Shown piece after piece: positions 4,646 to 23,140 of a stretch of 64,000 nt of DNA; the stretch's first letter is position 1; each line of letters starts with the position of its first letter. The translations under genes and the position numbers were made by a program. Below the pieces are notes generated by a model. It was not told the DNA's origin and did not search any database. It saw nothing but the letters and a program-made list of their open reading frames with translations. Source of the DNA: Verrucomicrobiales bacterium (GTDB taxonomy: Bacteria > Verrucomicrobiota > Verrucomicrobiia > Limisphaerales > UBA11320); assembly GCA_016793885.1 (NCBI GenBank), contig JAEUHE010000001.1, positions 1 through 64,000 of the forward strand, in the 5' to 3' direction.

Positions 4646-6841
4646 ATGACACCCAAGCGACCTGTTAGAAAATTTGACTTCGAACCATCTCGTAACCGTC
4701 CCTGGCGAAGGCTTTTTGAGGCGGGCCAGGTGGCCATCGCCTGTTCCCTCTGCTCCACGGCTCGGTCCCAGGAGCCGGTCGGCTCCAACTCCACCAATCT
4801 GCCTCCCACTAGGCTGCCCGACGTCGTGGTGGAAGGACGTGGCGACAGCCTGCTCGGGCTGGCCGATTCTGCCACTCAAGGCACCGTAGGCGCCGCTCAG
4901 CTCGAACTGCGCCCGATCCTTCGTTCGGGTGAAATATTGGAGACCGTGCCGGGAGTGATCATCACCCAGCACGCCGGAGGAGGTAAGGCCAATCAATACT
5001 TCTTGCGCGGCTTCAACCTCGACCACGGCACGGATTTCGCCACCTCGATCGATGACATGCCCATCAATCTCCCCACCCATGGACATGGCCAGGGCTATAC
5101 GGACATGAACTTCATCATCCCTGAGCTGGTCCAGCGCGTGAACTACCAGAAAGGGGTCTACTATGCTGAGAATGGAGATTTCGCCTCTGCTGGGGCCGCC
5201 CACCTCGATTCGTTCCGGGTGTTGCCGCAGAGCGTCGCCATTCTGGAGGCCGGCACGTTTGGCTTTGCCCGTGGCGTGTTCGCATCGTCACCCAAACTGG
5301 GGGATGGACACTTGCTCTACGGGTTGGAGGCCTATCACCATGATGGGCCTTGGAGAAACCCGGACGACTATCAGAAGTTCAACGGCGTGTTGACCTACAG
5401 TCAGGGCGACGAGAGCCGTGGATATAGCATCACTGCGCGGGGTTATCACGGCCGATGGGACTCCAGCGATCAGGTCGCCGCGAGCGCCGTTGCCTCTGGA
5501 ATCGTTCCGTTCTTCGGATCCCTCGATGATACGACGGGCGGCGATTCTCAGCGCTACAGCTTGCAGGCGGAGTGGCATCGCAGCGATGACCAATCCGCGA
5601 CCAAGGTGATGGCCTATGGTTTCTACTACGACTTGGACCTCCTCTCGAACTTCACTTACTTTCTGACCGACACAAATCGGGGCGACCAGTTCGAGCAGCA
5701 GGACAAACGGTTCGCTTCCGGGCTTCAAGCCAAGCATACACTTTACAACGAATGGTGGGGCAAGGAGGTGGAGAATTCCTTCGGACTTCAGGTCCGCAGC
5801 GATAGCATCCGCAACGGACTCTACCAGACGGAGGCGGGACGGCGGGTCGATAAGATCGATGCGGCCAGCGGTGATGTCTTACCCGCGACGACCCGACAGG
5901 ACGACATTCTTCAGAACAGCGTCGGTCTGTATTACGAGAACAAGCTTCAATGGGGAGAACGATTTCGAACGGTGACCGGCGTTCGAGGGGATATCTACCA
6001 TTTCGACGTTACGAGCGTCCGACGGCAGAATTCTGGCGATCGGTTAGATGCCATTGGGAGCCCGAAGGTCAGCTTAATCTTTGGTCCCTGGGCGAAAACT
6101 GAGGTTTATGCGCAAGGCGGGTTGGGATTCCACAGCAACGACGGCCGCGGCGTCACCACTCGGGTGGATCCGGTGACCGGCTTGCCGGTGGATGCCGATG
6201 GCAATGCGATTCGGCGTGCCGATCCGCTGGTGCAGACCTATGGAGCGGAGGTGGGGGTGCGGACCCTCGCCATTGACCGGTTGCAAAGCACGGTGTCTCT
6301 CTGGTGGCTGGATGCCGACTCCGAGCTGCTGTTCGTGGGGGATGCCGGAGCCACCGAGGCCACGCGTCCCAGCCGTCGGTATGGGGTGGAATGGGCGAAC
6401 TACTATCGGCTCACGCGGCATTTGACTCTCGATGCGGACCTCTCGTTTTCGCATGCTGAGTTTCGGGACGGCGCGGTGGAGGGGGACCACATCCCTGGCT
6501 CCATTGAAAGCGTGGTGGCGGCGGGGATTTCGTATCACGCGGACTCTGGGCTCTTTGGAAGTCTGAGGCTCAGATACTTCGGTCCGCGTCCCCTCATTGA
6601 GGACGACAGCATTCGGTCGGGGGCGACCGTATTGCTGAACGCTCAGGTGGGATATCGGTTCAACAAGACCTGGACCTTCACGGCGGAGATCTTGAACGTC
6701 TTGGATCGACGCGATCACGATGTCGACTACGCCTATGAATCCCGCGTTCGTCCCGGGGACCCTGACCCGGCAGGCCCGACGGTGCATTTTCATCCGGTGG
6801 AGCCCATCCAAGCACGATTCGCGTTGACGGCTCGGTTTTGA
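4646..6841 (+). CDS. TonB-dependent outer-membrane receptor, probably metal-related
   Basis: A 731-residue outer-membrane receptor. After a long N-terminal leader comes a TonB-box-like segment (DVVVEG, residues 59-64), a plug domain from about 78 (EILETVPGVIITQHAGGG, then FLRGFNLDHGTDF), and a 22-strand-type barrel ending in the aromatic residue of ALTARF. The plug carries NLPTHGHGQGY at 141-151, a His-containing motif of one receptor subgroup that I associate with metal or metal-chelate uptake. Length fits the family. The His-rich protein lies directly upstream. A perfect 15-bp hairpin follows 30 bases after the stop. The receptor call is secure; zinc or copper as substrate is inference. Confidence 0.88.
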   Translation: MTPKRPVRKFDFEPSRNRPWRRLFEAGQVAIACSLCSTARSQEPVGSNSTNLPPTRLPDVVVEGRGDSLLGLADSATQGTVGAAQLELRPILRSGEILETVPGVIITQHAGGGKANQYFLRGFNLDHGTDFATSIDDMPINLPTHGHGQGYTDMNFIIPELVQRVNYQKGVYYAENGDFASAGAAHLDSFRVLPQSVAILEAGTFGFARGVFASSPKLGDGHLLYGLEAYHHDGPWRNPDDYQKFNGVLTYSQGDESRGYSITARGYHGRWDSSDQVAASAVASGIVPFFGSLDDTTGGDSQRYSLQAEWHRSDDQSATKVMAYGFYYDLDLLSNFTYFLTDTNRGDQFEQQDKRFASGLQAKHTLYNEWWGKEVENSFGLQVRSDSIRNGLYQTEAGRRVDKIDAASGDVLPATTRQDDILQNSVGLYYENKLQWGERFRTVTGVRGDIYHFDVTSVRRQNSGDRLDAIGSPKVSLIFGPWAKTEVYAQGGLGFHSNDGRGVTTRVDPVTGLPVDADGNAIRRADPLVQTYGAEVGVRTLAIDRLQSTVSLWWLDADSELLFVGDAGATEATRPSRRYGVEWANYYRLTRHLTLDADLSFSHAEFRDGAVEGDHIPGSIESVVAAGISYHADSGLFGSLRLRYFGPRPLIEDDSIRSGATVLLNAQVGYRFNKTWTFTAEILNVLDRRDHDVDYAYESRVRPGDPDPAGPTVHFHPVEPIQARFALTARF

Positions 6842-7485: not shown

Positions 7486-9651
7486 ATGAAACACGCTCTC
7501 TTCATTTCCTCAGGACTGATCCTGCTGGCAGGCGAGGCCTCGAGCCAGAGCGCGGATGGAACTGTTTCCGACTCTTCCGTCGCTGGCGCTCGTGCAGCAA
7601 ATTTATCAACCAACACCCTCTCTAGCTTGGATCAAGTGGTTGTCACCGCGACGCGACGCGAGCAACGCCTGCTGGAGCTGCCGTTCAGCAGCCAGTCTCT
7701 TCGCGGGGCCGCCGTTCGCCGCGAATCGATGGCCGCGAGCGTTCCCGACGCCATGGTCCAGGTACCTGGAGCCATGATTCAGCAAACGGCGCGCGGGCAG
7801 GGGTCGCCCTATTTGCGAGGCTTTACTGGATTTCGCACCGTGGCACTGGTGGATGGGATCCGGTTGAACAATTCCACCTTTCGGGATGGCCCGAACCAGT
7901 ATTGGAGCACCATCGATGCGCTGGCTGTCGATCGGCTCGAGGTGATTCGGGGGCCGGGGTCAGTCATGTACGGCAGCGACTCCATCGGAGGGACGGTCAA
8001 CGCGCTGATGCGTTCCCCGACTTACCAAGCGATGCCCGGGGCACAGTGGGGAGGAGCGACCTATTATCGATTCGGCTCAGCGGAGCGAGCGCAGGTTGCC
8101 CGAGGCGAATTCAGCGGCTCCGAGTTCGATCGGTGGGGGTTCAATCTGGGAGTCAGCGGCAAGTCGTTTGGCGACGTTCAGGGCGGGGAGGAAGTTGGGC
8201 GGCAGCCGCACACGGGTTACGACCAATGGGATGCCGATGCCAAGGCGCAGTACTTCTTCAGCCCGAACACCAAGCTGACCCTAGCGTATCAGCGCACCGA
8301 ACAGGATGACGTGCAGCGAACCCACCGCACCATCTACGGGTTGACCTGGGAGGGGCTGACCCGAGGAACCGATCGGCAGCATCTCTTCGATCAACAGCGC
8401 CAGCTCAGCTACGCTCGGCTGGCCCATGCCACCGAGCGTGGGGATGAGTTCACCGCGACCCTTTCCTGGCAGATTCAGGATGAGCGACAGTTTGTCGAGC
8501 GAAGCAATCGTACGACGCAACGGACGACAGTGGATGTGGACACCCTGGCGTTGTCACTTCAGGGGCTGAGCCCATCTCAAATAGGAGCGTGGACCTACGG
8601 GCTAGAGCATTACCACGATTTCGTGTCCTCCTCTCAACGAACCTACGCCGCCAACGGTGTCTTGACCTCCACCGCCATTCAGGGTCCGGTTGCTGACGAC
8701 GCCGCTTATGATCTTCTCGGAGTCTATGTTCAGGACGAAGTTCCGATCCTCGAACGGTTAAGCCTCACGGTGGGCGGACGTTTCACTTGGGCGCGGTCCG
8801 ATGCGGGACGGGTTCGTGATCCGATCACGGCTTTGGCCACTTCGTTCAGCGATGACTGGGCGAATGCGGTGGGTAGCGGACGTTTGCTTTGGCATCCGGA
8901 CACGGAAGAGCGTTGGGGGCTGTACACCGGGGCTTCTCAGGGATTTCGAGCGCCGAATCTGAGTGACATGACGCGATTCGATATTGCCCGCAGCGGCGAG
9001 TTGGAGACGGCGGCTTTCGACCTTCAGCCCGAAAAGTTTTTGACTTTGGAATGGGGCGCCAAAACCGCCCAAGCCTGGTGGGAGGCGGAGGCAGCCTACT
9101 ATCATACGTTCATCGACGACCTGATCGTGCGGACTCCCACCGGGGCGGTTATTGGGGGTGCGAATGAGGTCACGAAGCGCAACGCCAGCACAGGCTGGAT
9201 TCATGGAGTCGAAGCCTCCGGTCGTCTGAGGTTCGGTTCAGGAGTCAGCTTGTTTGGCCAAGCCAGCTGGCAGGAGGGAGAAGCGGATGCGTTTCCCACC
9301 TCGGCTGCGGCGAGCGTGCGTGCGCCATTGAGCCGGCTGAATCCCGTCAGCGGGTTGGCTGGGCTGCGTTGGGACTCTCCGACAAAATCGTTTTTCAGCG
9401 AGGTCTTCGGCCAGGCGGCCGCGAAACAGGATCAGCTATCGCCCGACGATGCCCGCGACACGCAGCGAATTCCCCCTGGAGGGACGCCGGGATGGGCTAC
9501 TCTCAATTTCCGCGTAGGATATGCCTGGCGTGAGCAGTTCTTCCTAACGGCTGCATTGGAAAATGCCCTTAACGAGGACTACCGGTTGCATGGCAGCGGG
9601 TACAATCAGCCGGGACGCAATTTCAAGGTGGGGACGGAATGGCGGTTTTGA
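7486..9651 (+). CDS. TonB-dependent outer-membrane receptor
   Basis: A 721-residue receptor with a signal peptide ending near residue 22 (MKHALFISSGLILLAGEASS), a clear TonB box (DQVVVTATR, 49-57), a plug with SPYLRGFTGFRTVALVDGIR and the conserved DRLEVIRGPGSVMYGSDSIGG around 149-169, and a C-terminal barrel ending in TEWRF. The plug resembles iron or haem receptors of the BfrA/HmuR type in general motif, but the barrel shows no diagnostic haem motif that I can confirm, so the ligand stays open. It follows the first receptor by about 640 bases and probably has its own promoter. A dispersed palindrome follows the stop. Confidence 0.88.
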   Translation: MKHALFISSGLILLAGEASSQSADGTVSDSSVAGARAANLSTNTLSSLDQVVVTATRREQRLLELPFSSQSLRGAAVRRESMAASVPDAMVQVPGAMIQQTARGQGSPYLRGFTGFRTVALVDGIRLNNSTFRDGPNQYWSTIDALAVDRLEVIRGPGSVMYGSDSIGGTVNALMRSPTYQAMPGAQWGGATYYRFGSAERAQVARGEFSGSEFDRWGFNLGVSGKSFGDVQGGEEVGRQPHTGYDQWDADAKAQYFFSPNTKLTLAYQRTEQDDVQRTHRTIYGLTWEGLTRGTDRQHLFDQQRQLSYARLAHATERGDEFTATLSWQIQDERQFVERSNRTTQRTTVDVDTLALSLQGLSPSQIGAWTYGLEHYHDFVSSSQRTYAANGVLTSTAIQGPVADDAAYDLLGVYVQDEVPILERLSLTVGGRFTWARSDAGRVRDPITALATSFSDDWANAVGSGRLLWHPDTEERWGLYTGASQGFRAPNLSDMTRFDIARSGELETAAFDLQPEKFLTLEWGAKTAQAWWEAEAAYYHTFIDDLIVRTPTGAVIGGANEVTKRNASTGWIHGVEASGRLRFGSGVSLFGQASWQEGEADAFPTSAAASVRAPLSRLNPVSGLAGLRWDSPTKSFFSEVFGQAAAKQDQLSPDDARDTQRIPPGGTPGWATLNFRVGYAWREQFFLTAALENALNEDYRLHGSGYNQPGRNFKVGTEWRF

Positions 9652-9779: not shown

Positions 9780-10694
9780 TTAATTCCGATAGGCTTTGTG
9801 GCAAGTGCTGCAGCTTTTGATCACCTGTTGAAAGGCGGCATCTCGCGAGGGAGACGCAGAGGTTGGGCTGGCTAATTCGCGGTGGAGGGTTTCGACTGCC
9901 GACACCGCCGATTGCAGTTTCGCGCGGTAATCAGCGGGGCGTTTGGCGGAATCATCCGTCCGAAGCAACTCGCGCACATGCTCCCACAGCAGCTTCGCAG
10001 AGTGGACGGGAGTGAGGTCCGGCTGGCGGGGGATGCTAGACCAACCCAACTTCTGAGCCGCTTTAAGTCTCTCGAATTCTTCATCGATGGCCACCATGGC
10101 ATCGACTAGGGAGGAGGCTTGGGCGATCTCTGGAAGGCGAGTCACGGCAGAAAGGCTTTGAGGGGTGGGTGGCTGAAAGGTCATCGCGCTCCGGTAAAGT
10201 CCCGCATAGTCCATTGAAGTGCCGGCCTGCTTGAGCCAGGCGACTGCCTGATTGGTCGACCAGCCGGCCGTGGCTTCGCAAATGACTGCGACGGCTGCCG
10301 GCCCCCGATGCAGCCCGTGGTGGCAATGAATGTAAATGGGGCCTTGGGAGGTTTGAGCTGCCTTGGTGAGTTCGGCGACCCGTTGCAGCGGTACTCCGTC
10401 ATAACCGATCGGCAGGTGGATGTAGCGAATTCCATGCTGGCGTGCGGTTTCAACCTCCGGTTTGCCACCATCGACGCTGACAATGGTCTTCACACCCAAG
10501 CGAGCCAGTTCGGCGAAGGCCGCTTCTCCCGTGGGCGAGTTGCCGGACAAAAGATTCGTCGTGACTCGGAACACGTTGCGGATGTGGGTGGTGGCGAGTG
10601 GGGTTCCCAGGGCTGCGGGCGGGGCTGGGTTGGATTTGTGATCCGCTGCCGCAGCGAACGTCAGCGTCAGGAGCAGAGCGAGGATGGTTCCCAT
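9780..10694 (-). CDS. Exported dual-specificity-type phosphatase fused to a cytochrome c'-like domain
   Basis: A 304-residue protein with a signal peptide (cleavage near residue 17). Residues about 35-180 form a cysteine phosphatase domain: the P-loop HCHHGLHRG at 123-131 gives the Cys-x5-Arg signature (Cys124, Arg130). A possible general acid cannot be fixed by eye, although the GYDGVP loop at 98-103 is in the right place. Residues about 200-304 are helical and end in CSTCHKAYRN, a single CxxCH haem-attachment site (295-299) at the extreme C-terminus, as in cytochromes of the c' type. The N-terminal domain therefore acts in the periplasm, where c-type haem is attached. The fusion is clear; the substrate and the electron partner are unknown. 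Confidence 0.8.
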   Translation of the reverse strand: MGTILALLLTLTFAAAADHKSNPAPPAALGTPLATTHIRNVFRVTTNLLSGNSPTGEAAFAELARLGVKTIVSVDGGKPEVETARQHGIRYIHLPIGYDGVPLQRVAELTKAAQTSQGPIYIHCHHGLHRGPAAVAVICEATAGWSTNQAVAWLKQAGTSMDYAGLYRSAMTFQPPTPQSLSAVTRLPEIAQASSLVDAMVAIDEEFERLKAAQKLGWSSIPRQPDLTPVHSAKLLWEHVRELLRTDDSAKRPADYRAKLQSAVSAVETLHRELASPTSASPSRDAAFQQVIKSCSTCHKAYRN

Positions 10695-10847
10695 TTTGTT
10701 CCTAGTATGGCTTGACCTACTCTAAGAGTCGTTAGCGCACGCTGTCAAATGCCGCCCGTGTTCTGCTACCGGAGCATGTCAAAATGCTAGCCAATAGTCT
10801 TGCATGATCGGGTAAGGAAACGCAGGATTCTGAATATATACGTGCTC

Positions 10848-13422: not shown

Positions 13423-14004
13423 TCACCGATTCGGTGCATATTTGGCCAATTTGCGCTGGAGGCTGCGACGGTCGATGCGTAGGAGTCGGGCGGCTTGGGA
13501 AATGTTTCCGTGGCACTCGGCCAGGACACGGTGCATGTGTTGCCACTCGACCCATTCCAAGGAAGGAACTTGGGGGAGCCGTTCCTCCGTTGAGGGAGCG
13601 CCGGCGGCCGAGGGGTCGGCCGCGAGCGCATGCAGGATTTGATCCGTATCGGCTGGCTTGGTCAGGTAGTCGTGAGCGCCGAGCCGGACGGCTTTCATGG
13701 CCGTGGCCACGCTCGCATAGCCGGTGAGCATGACAATCCGGAGCTGGGGCTGGATCTGCAGAAGGCGCGGGATGAGTTCCAGGCCGCCGGACTCGGGGAG
13801 GCGAAGGTCGACGACCGCCGAAACGAAGTTGCCACGTTCGAGTTGTTCCACGGCGGCGGCCGAGTCGGCCACGGATTCGACCTCAATTCCGCGCTGTCGG
13901 AGCGCACTCGCCAGGCAATCCCGGAACCGCGGATCATCGTCCACGAGCAGGATAGGATCGAGTTTGGGGGTGGAACTGTCCGATGGCGGCTGGCCAGCAT
14001 TCAT
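13423..14004 (-). CDS. regA: Redox response regulator of the RegA/ActR family
   Basis: A 193-residue two-domain regulator. The receiver domain has the acidic pair in LLVDDDPRFRD, phosphoacceptor Asp66 (AVVDLRLP), Thr94 in MLTGYAS and Lys116 (DYLTKPAD). The C-terminal helix-turn-helix ends NISQAARLLRIDRRSLQRKL (residues 168-187), the Fis-like DNA-binding helix characteristic of RegA/PrrA/ActR. The start overlaps the kinase stop by 4 bases. In known systems RegA controls respiratory, photosynthetic or nitrogen genes by redox state. Its stop is only 2 bases from the convergent pseudopilin stop. Confidence 0.85.
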   Translation of the reverse strand: MNAGQPPSDSSTPKLDPILLVDDDPRFRDCLASALRQRGIEVESVADSAAAVEQLERGNFVSAVVDLRLPESGGLELIPRLLQIQPQLRIVMLTGYASVATAMKAVRLGAHDYLTKPADTDQILHALAADPSAAGAPSTEERLPQVPSLEWVEWQHMHRVLAECHGNISQAARLLRIDRRSLQRKLAKYAPNR

Positions 14005-15335
14005 GTCGGTGAAGGGGTGTTTAGGGGGACGGTTGGCAGTCGGAGCCGGACTGTGGTGCCTCGTCCTTTTTCAGAATCGATCTCCATGCTGCCACCCACC
14101 TGCTGAACGAAGAGGCGGACGAGGAAAATGCCGAGGCCCTTTCCTGAGCCTTTGGTGGTAAAGAACGGGCTGCCGAGTCGGCTTAGGAAGTCGGGATCCA
14201 TGCCACAGCCTGGGTCGATCACTCGCAGATCCAAGCTGTCGTTGGAGGTGGCGGCGGCGCGAACCTCGACGGTCGAACCCGCGGAGCTGGCTTCGAGACC
14301 ATTTTGGACCAAGGAAACCAGGCTTTGTATGAGGGCCACCCTGGGCAGATGGAGGCAGGTCCCTTCCGACGCGTCATGAATGGCGATCCGCGAGAGTTGT
14401 TCGGGCAGCAACCGCGAGCGCATTTCCTTGAAGCAATCGGACAAGGCATACCCTTCGACATCGGGAGCGGAGTCCCCGATTGCATCGGGGTTGATTTGGT
14501 CCAGGATCACACGACAGCGGTCCACCTCTTCCCGGATGAAGCGGGCGGCCGGAAGGAACTCTTGGGCGGCGCTGCTGCGATAGGCCGTGCGAGTGAGTTC
14601 GTGCGATGCCACAGCGATGCTGGCCAGGGGGCTTCCCAGCTCATGGGCAACCCCCGCGGCGAGGGCTGTGAGAGCAGCCGATCGCTCCGTTTCGGCGGCG
14701 AGGGATTGGGCGCGAGCTAGGTCGCGTTGTTGCTGTCGAATCGAGGCATTGAGCTGGATGACGAAGTAGCTGATGGCGGCGGCGGTCAGCACGAAGGAAA
14801 CCAGCATGCCTTGGAGATGGAGGTTGGTTTCCGCATGCGCCGTGGTGTGCGCCAGCATTCCGTGGGCGAGGTGGCCGGAAGCGGAGGGGAGAAAGAAAAG
14901 GGCGGCGTAACAAAGGGAGCACCAGCCGCAGAGCGCGCCCGTCCACAGTCCGCTGACCAGCATGGCGGCCATGGTGATGTGGATCAGGTAGAAGGAGCCA
15001 AATGGATTGTGCGGTCCGCCGCTGCAGGCGAGGAGTCCGGTCAGGGCGAGCGCATCCAGCAGTAATACGCCAGCGATCCAGTTTGCGCCGTCCCCCGGAA
15101 CTCGATCCCTGAGCGCAGGCAGAGCGATGTTACTGAGCGCTACGAGCGTGACGATGGTCAGCATCTCGGGCACCGGTAAAGGAATCTTGAGACAGGACCG
15201 GACTGCGAGGATGGTGATCGTTTGGCCGATCACGGCCGTCCAGCGGAGTCTGACCAGCCAATCCCACGGCGCGGGACGGAGCAACGGAATGCCGGATCGC
15301 GGCTGAGCTGAGGCGACTAAGACATGAGGGGGCAT
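14001..15335 (-). CDS. regB: Redox-sensing membrane histidine kinase of the RegB/ActS family
   Basis: The kinase probably starts at the Met at 15335 (444 residues); a longer frame reaches 15401, but its first 22 residues do not look like family sequence. Six hydrophobic segments lie between residues about 45 and 215 of the long form, with GGPHNPF after the third (128-134), the ubiquinone-sensing loop signature of RegB. The H-box is AAGVAHELGSPLASI with His253, followed by VDRCRVIL with Cys296, matching the position of the redox-active Cys known from RegB. The N and G boxes (QNGLEAS, DPGCGM, GKGLGIFL) are intact. The downstream regulator overlaps it by 4 bases, and a small cytochrome lies upstream. 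Confidence 0.85.
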   Translation of the reverse strand: MPPHVLVASAQPRSGIPLLRPAPWDWLVRLRWTAVIGQTITILAVRSCLKIPLPVPEMLTIVTLVALSNIALPALRDRVPGDGANWIAGVLLLDALALTGLLACSGGPHNPFGSFYLIHITMAAMLVSGLWTGALCGWCSLCYAALFFLPSASGHLAHGMLAHTTAHAETNLHLQGMLVSFVLTAAAISYFVIQLNASIRQQQRDLARAQSLAAETERSAALTALAAGVAHELGSPLASIAVASHELTRTAYRSSAAQEFLPAARFIREEVDRCRVILDQINPDAIGDSAPDVEGYALSDCFKEMRSRLLPEQLSRIAIHDASEGTCLHLPRVALIQSLVSLVQNGLEASSAGSTVEVRAAATSNDSLDLRVIDPGCGMDPDFLSRLGSPFFTTKGSGKGLGIFLVRLFVQQVGGSMEIDSEKGRGTTVRLRLPTVPLNTPSPT

Positions 15336-15384
15336 GTAGTGGCGGAGTCGGTTCGACTCGCCTCCACAGCAAGGACAAGCAAGA

Positions 15385-15472
15385 GAGAGCGCGTCGCCCA
15401 CCGAAGGCTGACGAGGCCCTGCGGACAGGGCAGGAGCCAGCGAAAAGGGGATCCCCCCCCTGACGCGCTCTC
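15385..15472 (-). promoter_or_regulatory. Structured leader between the cytochrome and regB
   Basis: GAGAGCGCGTC (15385-15395) pairs exactly with GACGCGCTCTC (15462-15472), enclosing a second perfect hairpin GCCCTG-CGGA-CAGGGC (15416-15431). On the minus strand it lies in the 150-base gap between the small cytochrome stop and the preferred regB start. It could be an attenuator, a partial terminator or a dispersed repeat; no T-run follows. Confidence 0.45.
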
Positions 15473-22756: not shown

Positions 22757-23140
22757 TTAGCTCAAGAGGAGGGGAGGAGGAACGGGCGGAGGACTGCCTT
22801 CGGATGAATAATAAACTCGAAGAGGTGCGCTGGGTATCTGAGAAATGGGATACCAAAGTACGGGGTCGGTCAGCTGGGAGACAAACTCGATCTTAAGTGG
22901 AAGGTGACCGTTTTCCTGCTGCTTATTCGATTCGGACTGGCGGCTCTCGTTCACGAACTTGCAGAGACGGCAGGGGTGAGCGCCGTCGAAAGTCCATTCC
23001 AGCGCCTGAGTGATGGAGGTCTCCTGAGAGAAAGACACCGCCATGCTGGCCCAAGCAAAGGCCTGTACGAACGCCCAATGCCCTCCGATCCAGAGGATCA
23101 GGACAGCAACGGTGCAGAACTTGGCAGCCGGCTTCAACAC
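22757..23140 (-). CDS. Small membrane-anchored HPCxLCK protein, copy 2
   Basis: A 127-residue protein, paralogue of 16148-16519. It has an N-terminal hydrophobic segment (VAVLILWIGGHWAFVQAFAW), then TFDGAHPCRLCKFVNES, a polar stretch and a Pro-rich tail (PPPVPPPLLL). The HPC-x-LC site is conserved exactly between the two copies, which supports a metal- or haem-linked role, and both lie within about 8 kb of TonB- or cytochrome-related genes. No named family is recognised. It sits upstream of the PEP-CTERM pair on the same strand, but a gap of more than 500 bases argues against tight coupling. Confidence 0.65.
   Translation of the reverse strand: MLKPAAKFCTVAVLILWIGGHWAFVQAFAWASMAVSFSQETSITQALEWTFDGAHPCRLCKFVNESRQSESNKQQENGHLPLKIEFVSQLTDPVLWYPISQIPSAPLRVYYSSEGSPPPVPPPLLLS

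Follow-up and report, generated by a model that had tools for sequence, protein, structure and literature searches.

Cysteine-dependent phosphatases are redox-sensitive, and to our knowledge none is known to carry a covalent haem of its own. A gene in a Verrucomicrobiales bacterium (assembly GCA_016793885.1, contig JAEUHE010000001.1, positions 1 to 64,000, referred to here as the window) raises the question of whether the two have been joined in a single exported protein, and what such a protein would do. As the first-pass annotation had reported, HCHHGLHRG at residues 123-131 and CSTCHKAYRN, the final ten residues, both lie in one frame of 304 amino acids. The lone candidate start codon of the gene is an ATG, with AGGA 5 nt before it.

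9780..10694, minus strand: whole gene for the probable exported PTP-cytochrome c' fusion; a single open reading frame of 304 amino acids plus stop, with full-length homologues
10700..10703, minus strand: AGGA, probable ribosome-binding site 5 nt before the ATG, read from the sequence
10644..10694, minus strand: probable signal peptide MGTILALLLTLTFAAAA, residues 1-17; a hydrophobic run with an A-x-A end, identified by eye, and a model helix at 3-17

The signal peptide is followed by Asp and has an n-region without Lys or Arg; most homologues have ordinary n-regions. Export of the protein is probable, being well supported by sequence and models, with the signal peptide itself assigned by eye.

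The first-pass annotation had named a frameshift or sequencing fusion as something that would refute its reading; signs of one were looked for and none was found, and the same full-length protein occurs in independent assemblies. Homologues, isolates included, effectively rule out the joining of two genes by frameshift, sequencing or assembly error. Full-length fusions are encoded by the isolates Singulisphaera acidiphila (complete genome), Chthoniobacter flavus and Tautonia, and on a plasmid of Aquisphaera. A scan of GTDB representative genomes returned 542 related stretches, of which 80 loci were kept. In all 80, which come from other genomes, HCHHGxHR is followed 161-185 residues downstream by exactly one CxxCH, near the protein end; conservation of the P-loop is biased upward because the P-loop was one of the two seed motifs of the scan. 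Neither CxxCH nor M200 served as a seed. Homologue alignments run end to end, the closest relative being about 56-57% identical. Differences from this relative fall mostly at third codon positions in both domains, so both halves have been maintained as protein, and both look to be under purifying selection. For the PTP domain, NG86 estimates are dN ~0.32 and dS ~2.2, with dS near saturation. The presence of the same fusion across independent assemblies means that it is not an assembly artefact and, judging from the homologues, the PTP-cytochrome fusion is both real and old.

The phosphatase part follows the signal peptide.

10146..10592, minus strand: DSP/PTP domain, residues 35-183; Pfam DSP/PTP families and a structural match to TpbA (Z 18.3, model residues 25-183)
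10299..10328, minus strand: P-loop HCHHGLHRGP, residues 123-132, with nucleophile C124 and R130; G131 replaces Ser/Thr
10398..10400, minus strand: D99, probable general acid, aligned with TpbA D105; Asp in 75/81 family sequences

Pfam models of the DSP/PTP group match the window protein just under their gathering score, and each of 28 sampled relatives matches at least one such model. Structural matches to the PTP-domain model include TpbA (Z 18.3 over 155 residues) and DUSP23 (Z 17.9). TpbA (PA3885), a periplasmic dual-specificity tyrosine phosphatase of Pseudomonas aeruginosa, is the nearest solved protein by both sequence and structure (E 1e-6 with the single sequence, 4e-10 with the profile). 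Like the fusion protein it is exported and has the same fold, and its C132, R138 and D105 correspond to C124, R130 and D99; D105 is the probable general acid of TpbA (PMC4409338). In contrast to the fusion, to which it is ~22% identical, TpbA has no haem domain and keeps a Thr after the P-loop Arg (HCKHGNNRT). The features of the Cys-based PTP/DSP superfamily that are present in the window protein are the HC-x5-R P-loop, the PTP fold and the acid-loop Asp; the usual Ser/Thr after the P-loop Arg is absent, its place being taken by G131.

Ser or Thr at this position is usual in Cys phosphatases but is not found in PRLs, and so is not strictly defining. Across 81 family sequences, residue 131 is Gly in 65, Ser in 14 and Ala in 2, i.e. 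Gly or Ala in 67/81. Around it, H123, C124, H125, H126, G127, H129, R130 and P132 are identical in 81/81, a count subject to the seeding bias described above, and residue 128 is Lys in 57/81 and Leu in the window protein. Nine TpbA-like stand-alone relatives from the same order (L018-L025, L027) all have Thr after the P-loop Arg. Three closer relatives without the haem domain have the loops HCHAGRHRA, HCKNGKHRS and HCHHGKHRG; since similar loops occur in these haem-less relatives, the unusual P-loop is not confined to chains that carry the haem domain. In the HCHHGKHRG relative (L142, G488:C171:11600-12952), the place of the haem domain is taken by another stretch resembling a degenerate DSP domain.

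Two known groups have P-loops that resemble that of the fusion. PRLs (PTP4A) share HCxxGLxR followed by Ala or Gly and then Pro instead of Ser/Thr; human PRLs have Ala, which is the reason their phosphocysteine has a lifetime of over an hour (PMC12192612). The PFA-DSP/Siw14 inositol-pyrophosphate phosphatases share G-K-H-R (K128 in 57/81; H129 invariant), but they need the Thr after Arg, since T157A leaves 2% activity, and they are without the canonical acid-loop Asp (PMC9038691), whereas the fusion has D99, and G131 rather than Thr. With Ser/Thr missing after the P-loop Arg, the fusion protein need not be an ordinary fast phosphatase. By analogy, slow, burst-type kinetics through a long-lived phosphocysteine are predicted for most of the family; given the Ser at 131 in 14/81, slow turnover would not be family-wide.

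The remainder of the protein is a predicted helical bundle that ends with the haem-attachment motif.

9783..10112, minus strand: class II cytochrome c (cytochrome c') four-helix domain, residues 195-304; pLDDT 95.5 alone, Z 13.7, PF01322, profile match to cytochrome c'
9786..9812, minus strand: haem-attachment motif C295-S-T-C298-H299 and R303, all in 81/81
10095..10097, minus strand: M200, candidate sixth haem ligand, in 81/81; aligns with the Met of stand-alone class II cytochromes

The main helices are predicted at 195-215, 229-244, 254-275 and 281-302, with CxxCH in the last. Mean pLDDT is 90 over the full chain and 95.5 when the haem domain is modelled alone, and the pTM of the whole-protein model is 0.76, a model that does not fix the placement of the PTP domain relative to the haem domain. 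PTP-domain matches filled the fold search with the whole model, and the haem domain was therefore predicted and searched alone. Cytochrome c' came first in the resulting structural list (Z 13.7), the top of which it shares with the Kuenenia Kusta0087/0088 cytochromes (Z 13.7-13.2); since unrelated helical bundles score Z 12-13 in the same list, the fold alone is weak evidence for cytochrome c'. With the bundle as query, Foldseek returned nothing under E 0.001; the assignment is therefore based on the sequence profile, CxxCH and the fold in combination. For PF01322, the window protein scores 24.0 bits against a gathering score of 26.5, and 25/28 relatives match at E 0.01 (best E 6e-9); the profile matches cytochrome c' chains at 9e-5. 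The domain shares the four-helix bundle, the last-helix CxxCH and an Arg at +4 from the His with cytochromes c' (PF01322) of Shewanella, Alcaligenes and Kuenenia (Kusta0087/0088), with sequence similarity mainly in the C-terminal half. Known cytochromes c' are stand-alone electron carriers or gas binders, whereas the fusion's copy is joined to a phosphatase. M200, in the first bundle helix, aligns with the Met of stand-alone planctomycete class II cytochromes (hhalign probability 97%) and is a candidate sixth haem ligand. The source genome encodes CcsA-type homologues (three matches) and ResB homologues (two), i.e. system II cytochrome c maturation, and the predicted CxxCH site would be expected to carry covalent haem.

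A PTP/DSP fold with the full nucleophile, Arg and acid set and a class II cytochrome bundle in one chain is thus well supported by sequence and models. The first-pass proposal of an exported chain with a Cys-phosphatase fold and a c-type haem domain is borne out to that extent, with the haem domain now placed in class II and the signal peptide identified by eye. C124 and R130, the candidate ligand M200, and C295, C298, H299 and R303 are co-conserved in 81/81. A second, degenerate copy of the fusion in one genome (L029, G092:C30:42941-43555) has the P-loop block deleted and CxxCH changed to CVACQ; this joint loss of the two active sites counts for the reading that follows.

The most likely reading is that the protein is a haem-regulated exported phosphatase acting as a slow switch, in which the haem senses redox state or a gas; we put its probability at roughly 0.45. 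ResB/CcsA would attach haem to the fusion protein outside the cytoplasm. A phosphorylated periplasmic or cell-surface substrate, either a protein or a small molecule, would transfer its phosphate to C124, and the Gly in place of Ser/Thr after the Arg would make release from phosphocysteine slow, so that the protein would act as a slow switch and not as a rapid phosphatase. The haem domain, liganded by H299 and probably by M200 as sixth ligand, may respond to redox state or to a diatomic gas, for example NO, and alter the PTP domain; we infer that haem state is coupled to phosphatase activity in this way. The slow-release and haem-sensing steps are the least certain of the proposed mechanism. 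Weighing against this reading are the failure of the loci to reveal a shared neighbour or substrate, the haem-less relatives with similar P-loops and the Ser at 131 in 14/81. Support for a regulatory role of such domains in these bacteria comes from ECF sigma factors (Sigma70_r2 plus r4) that carry the same type of cytochrome domain, encoded by Singulisphaera sp. GP187 (L129:598-1653, plus strand) and S. acidiphila (L130:1498-2703, minus strand). These proteins have a hydrophobic, probably membrane-spanning stretch between their two parts and end in CIQCHVAFRH, and are candidates for a membrane-bound haem-sensing sigma factor.

The main rival to haem sensing is an electron-transfer role, in which a low-spin His/Met, c556-like haem keeps C124 reduced or links to a respiratory partner, and the phosphatase works independently of haem state. 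This reading is less probable than haem regulation. In its favour, M200 is invariant in the first helix and aligned with the Met of stand-alone class II cytochromes, and a haem held by His and Met would be better suited to passing electrons than to sensing a gas. Genes for cytochrome c oxidase and SCO also lie ~2 kb from one plasmid copy. However, this neighbourhood is not conserved, no electron-transfer partner was found, and M200 is only a candidate ligand.

It is also conceivable, if improbable, that the PTP domain serves chiefly as a pseudophosphatase that binds phosphate or protein, comparable to PRLs with CNNM transporters, and that the haem domain is structural or localising. The missing Ser/Thr in 67/81 is consistent with such a role, as is the appearance of PRLs among the nearest profile matches, their loop aligning as HCxxGLxR[AG]P; PRLs engage their partners via the active site (PMC12192612). 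Against this, the Cys/Arg/Asp set is kept as strictly as an enzyme would keep it, and so strict a conservation of CxxCH would not be expected if the haem domain were merely structural. The second redox Cys of PRLs (C49) has no conserved counterpart in the fusion, where the sole other conserved Cys of the PTP domain is C139 (53/81), after the P-loop, and the fusion differs from PRLs in being exported and in carrying the haem domain. Very unlikely is a role in sulfur (persulfide) transfer like that of TIGR01244/Blh proteins, in which the haem would take electrons in sulfur oxidation. The TIGR01244/Blh domain (DUF442) has a related fold and gives weak profile matches to the fusion, but the scores are far under the cut-offs (21.6 vs 85.85 bits for TIGR01244, 23.9 vs 625 for Blh), and TIGR01244-like loops in related genomes are C-x4-R (CRTGRR, CRKGPR), whereas the fusion family has C-x5-R as in PTPs.

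The first-pass annotation had suggested an architecture search, and the pairing of a DSP/PTP domain with a cytochrome c'-type domain proves to recur widely rather than being a one-off. Among 97 genomes sampled around the source genome (same genus and order), 14, the source included, encode the full-length fusion, and 3 more have pieces cut by contig ends. At one locus in the same genus (L026, G003:C2:56582-56674), only the last 31 residues are recognisable (71% identical, CSSCHKAYRN); decay of the gene or a break in the assembly would account for its appearance. By record title, the 80 loci belong to Verrucomicrobiota, Planctomycetota, a Hydrogenedentota MAG, an Abditibacteriales MAG and two MAGs titled only "bacterium". 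About a third of the Planctomycetota genomes (86/246) give a match stronger than 1e-60; three of these 86 stop short of the model's C-terminal end, and 7/246 have only PTP-domain relatives without the fusion. The fusion was found in 5/68 genomes of the Hydrogenedentota phylum and in 3/121 of the phylum that holds the Abditibacteriales MAG, where one match ends before the CxxCH region. A draw of 240 other Verrucomicrobiota from outside the order gave almost only stand-alone PTP relatives, but C. flavus and some other lineages do carry the fusion. Across the genomes sampled, the fusion is patchy between lineages and single-copy in most carriers. The plasmid copy of Aquisphaera giovannonii is annotated as "dual specificity protein phosphatase" and that of a Planctomyces sp. 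as "hypothetical protein". A search of phages for the fusion protein and a PADLOC search for defence systems gave no match.

The first-pass annotation knew of no characterised example of this fusion, and none was found in literature searches, which covered open-access papers only, so that the absence is weak evidence. Both domains are of known kinds; their combination appears to be undescribed in the open-access literature. A broader proposal is that these are widespread haem-gated phosphatases and form a redox-to-dephosphorylation switch in Planctomycetota and Verrucomicrobiota: outside the cytoplasm, a covalent c-type haem would respond to redox state or NO and govern a slow phosphatase that traps phosphocysteine. 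This proposal is tentative and on balance doubtful. If it is true, the state of electron transfer would be tied to extracytoplasmic dephosphorylation in two large phyla that are poorly understood. Since the fusion is conserved and mostly single-copy, and is present in the cultivated S. acidiphila and C. flavus, haem control of a Cys phosphatase is directly testable.

No conserved neighbour emerged when the neighbours at the 80 loci were clustered all against all and 111 adjacent ORFs were scanned with Pfam; the commonest annotated family accounts for 4/111, and some of the ORFs, which were called mechanically, may be spurious. In the window, a TonB receptor gene (7486-9651, plus strand) adjoins the fusion gene convergently and has a haem/haemoglobin-type score (TIGR01785, 5.6e-57) below the cut-off; the haem-uptake role that it suggested was rejected because the pairing is not conserved. 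Another TonB receptor (4646-6841, plus strand) has relatives near the fusion gene in L031, L093 and L095, the family being near only 4/81 loci; the L031 locus also holds HupE/UreJ. About 2.7 kb from the fusion gene, 13423-15401 (minus strand) encodes a response regulator with a Fis-type HTH and a membrane histidine kinase with an HELGSPL box, a pair that may resemble the RegB/RegA (PrrB/PrrA) redox system; its proximity is not a family-wide association. A family of small proteins with FDGxHPCxLC is encoded at 22760-23140 (minus strand) in the window and at L035:7525-8070, L040:11517-11894 and L049:3640-4218. The two members scanned (L035, L040) have no Pfam match, and the gene adjoins the fusion gene in L035.
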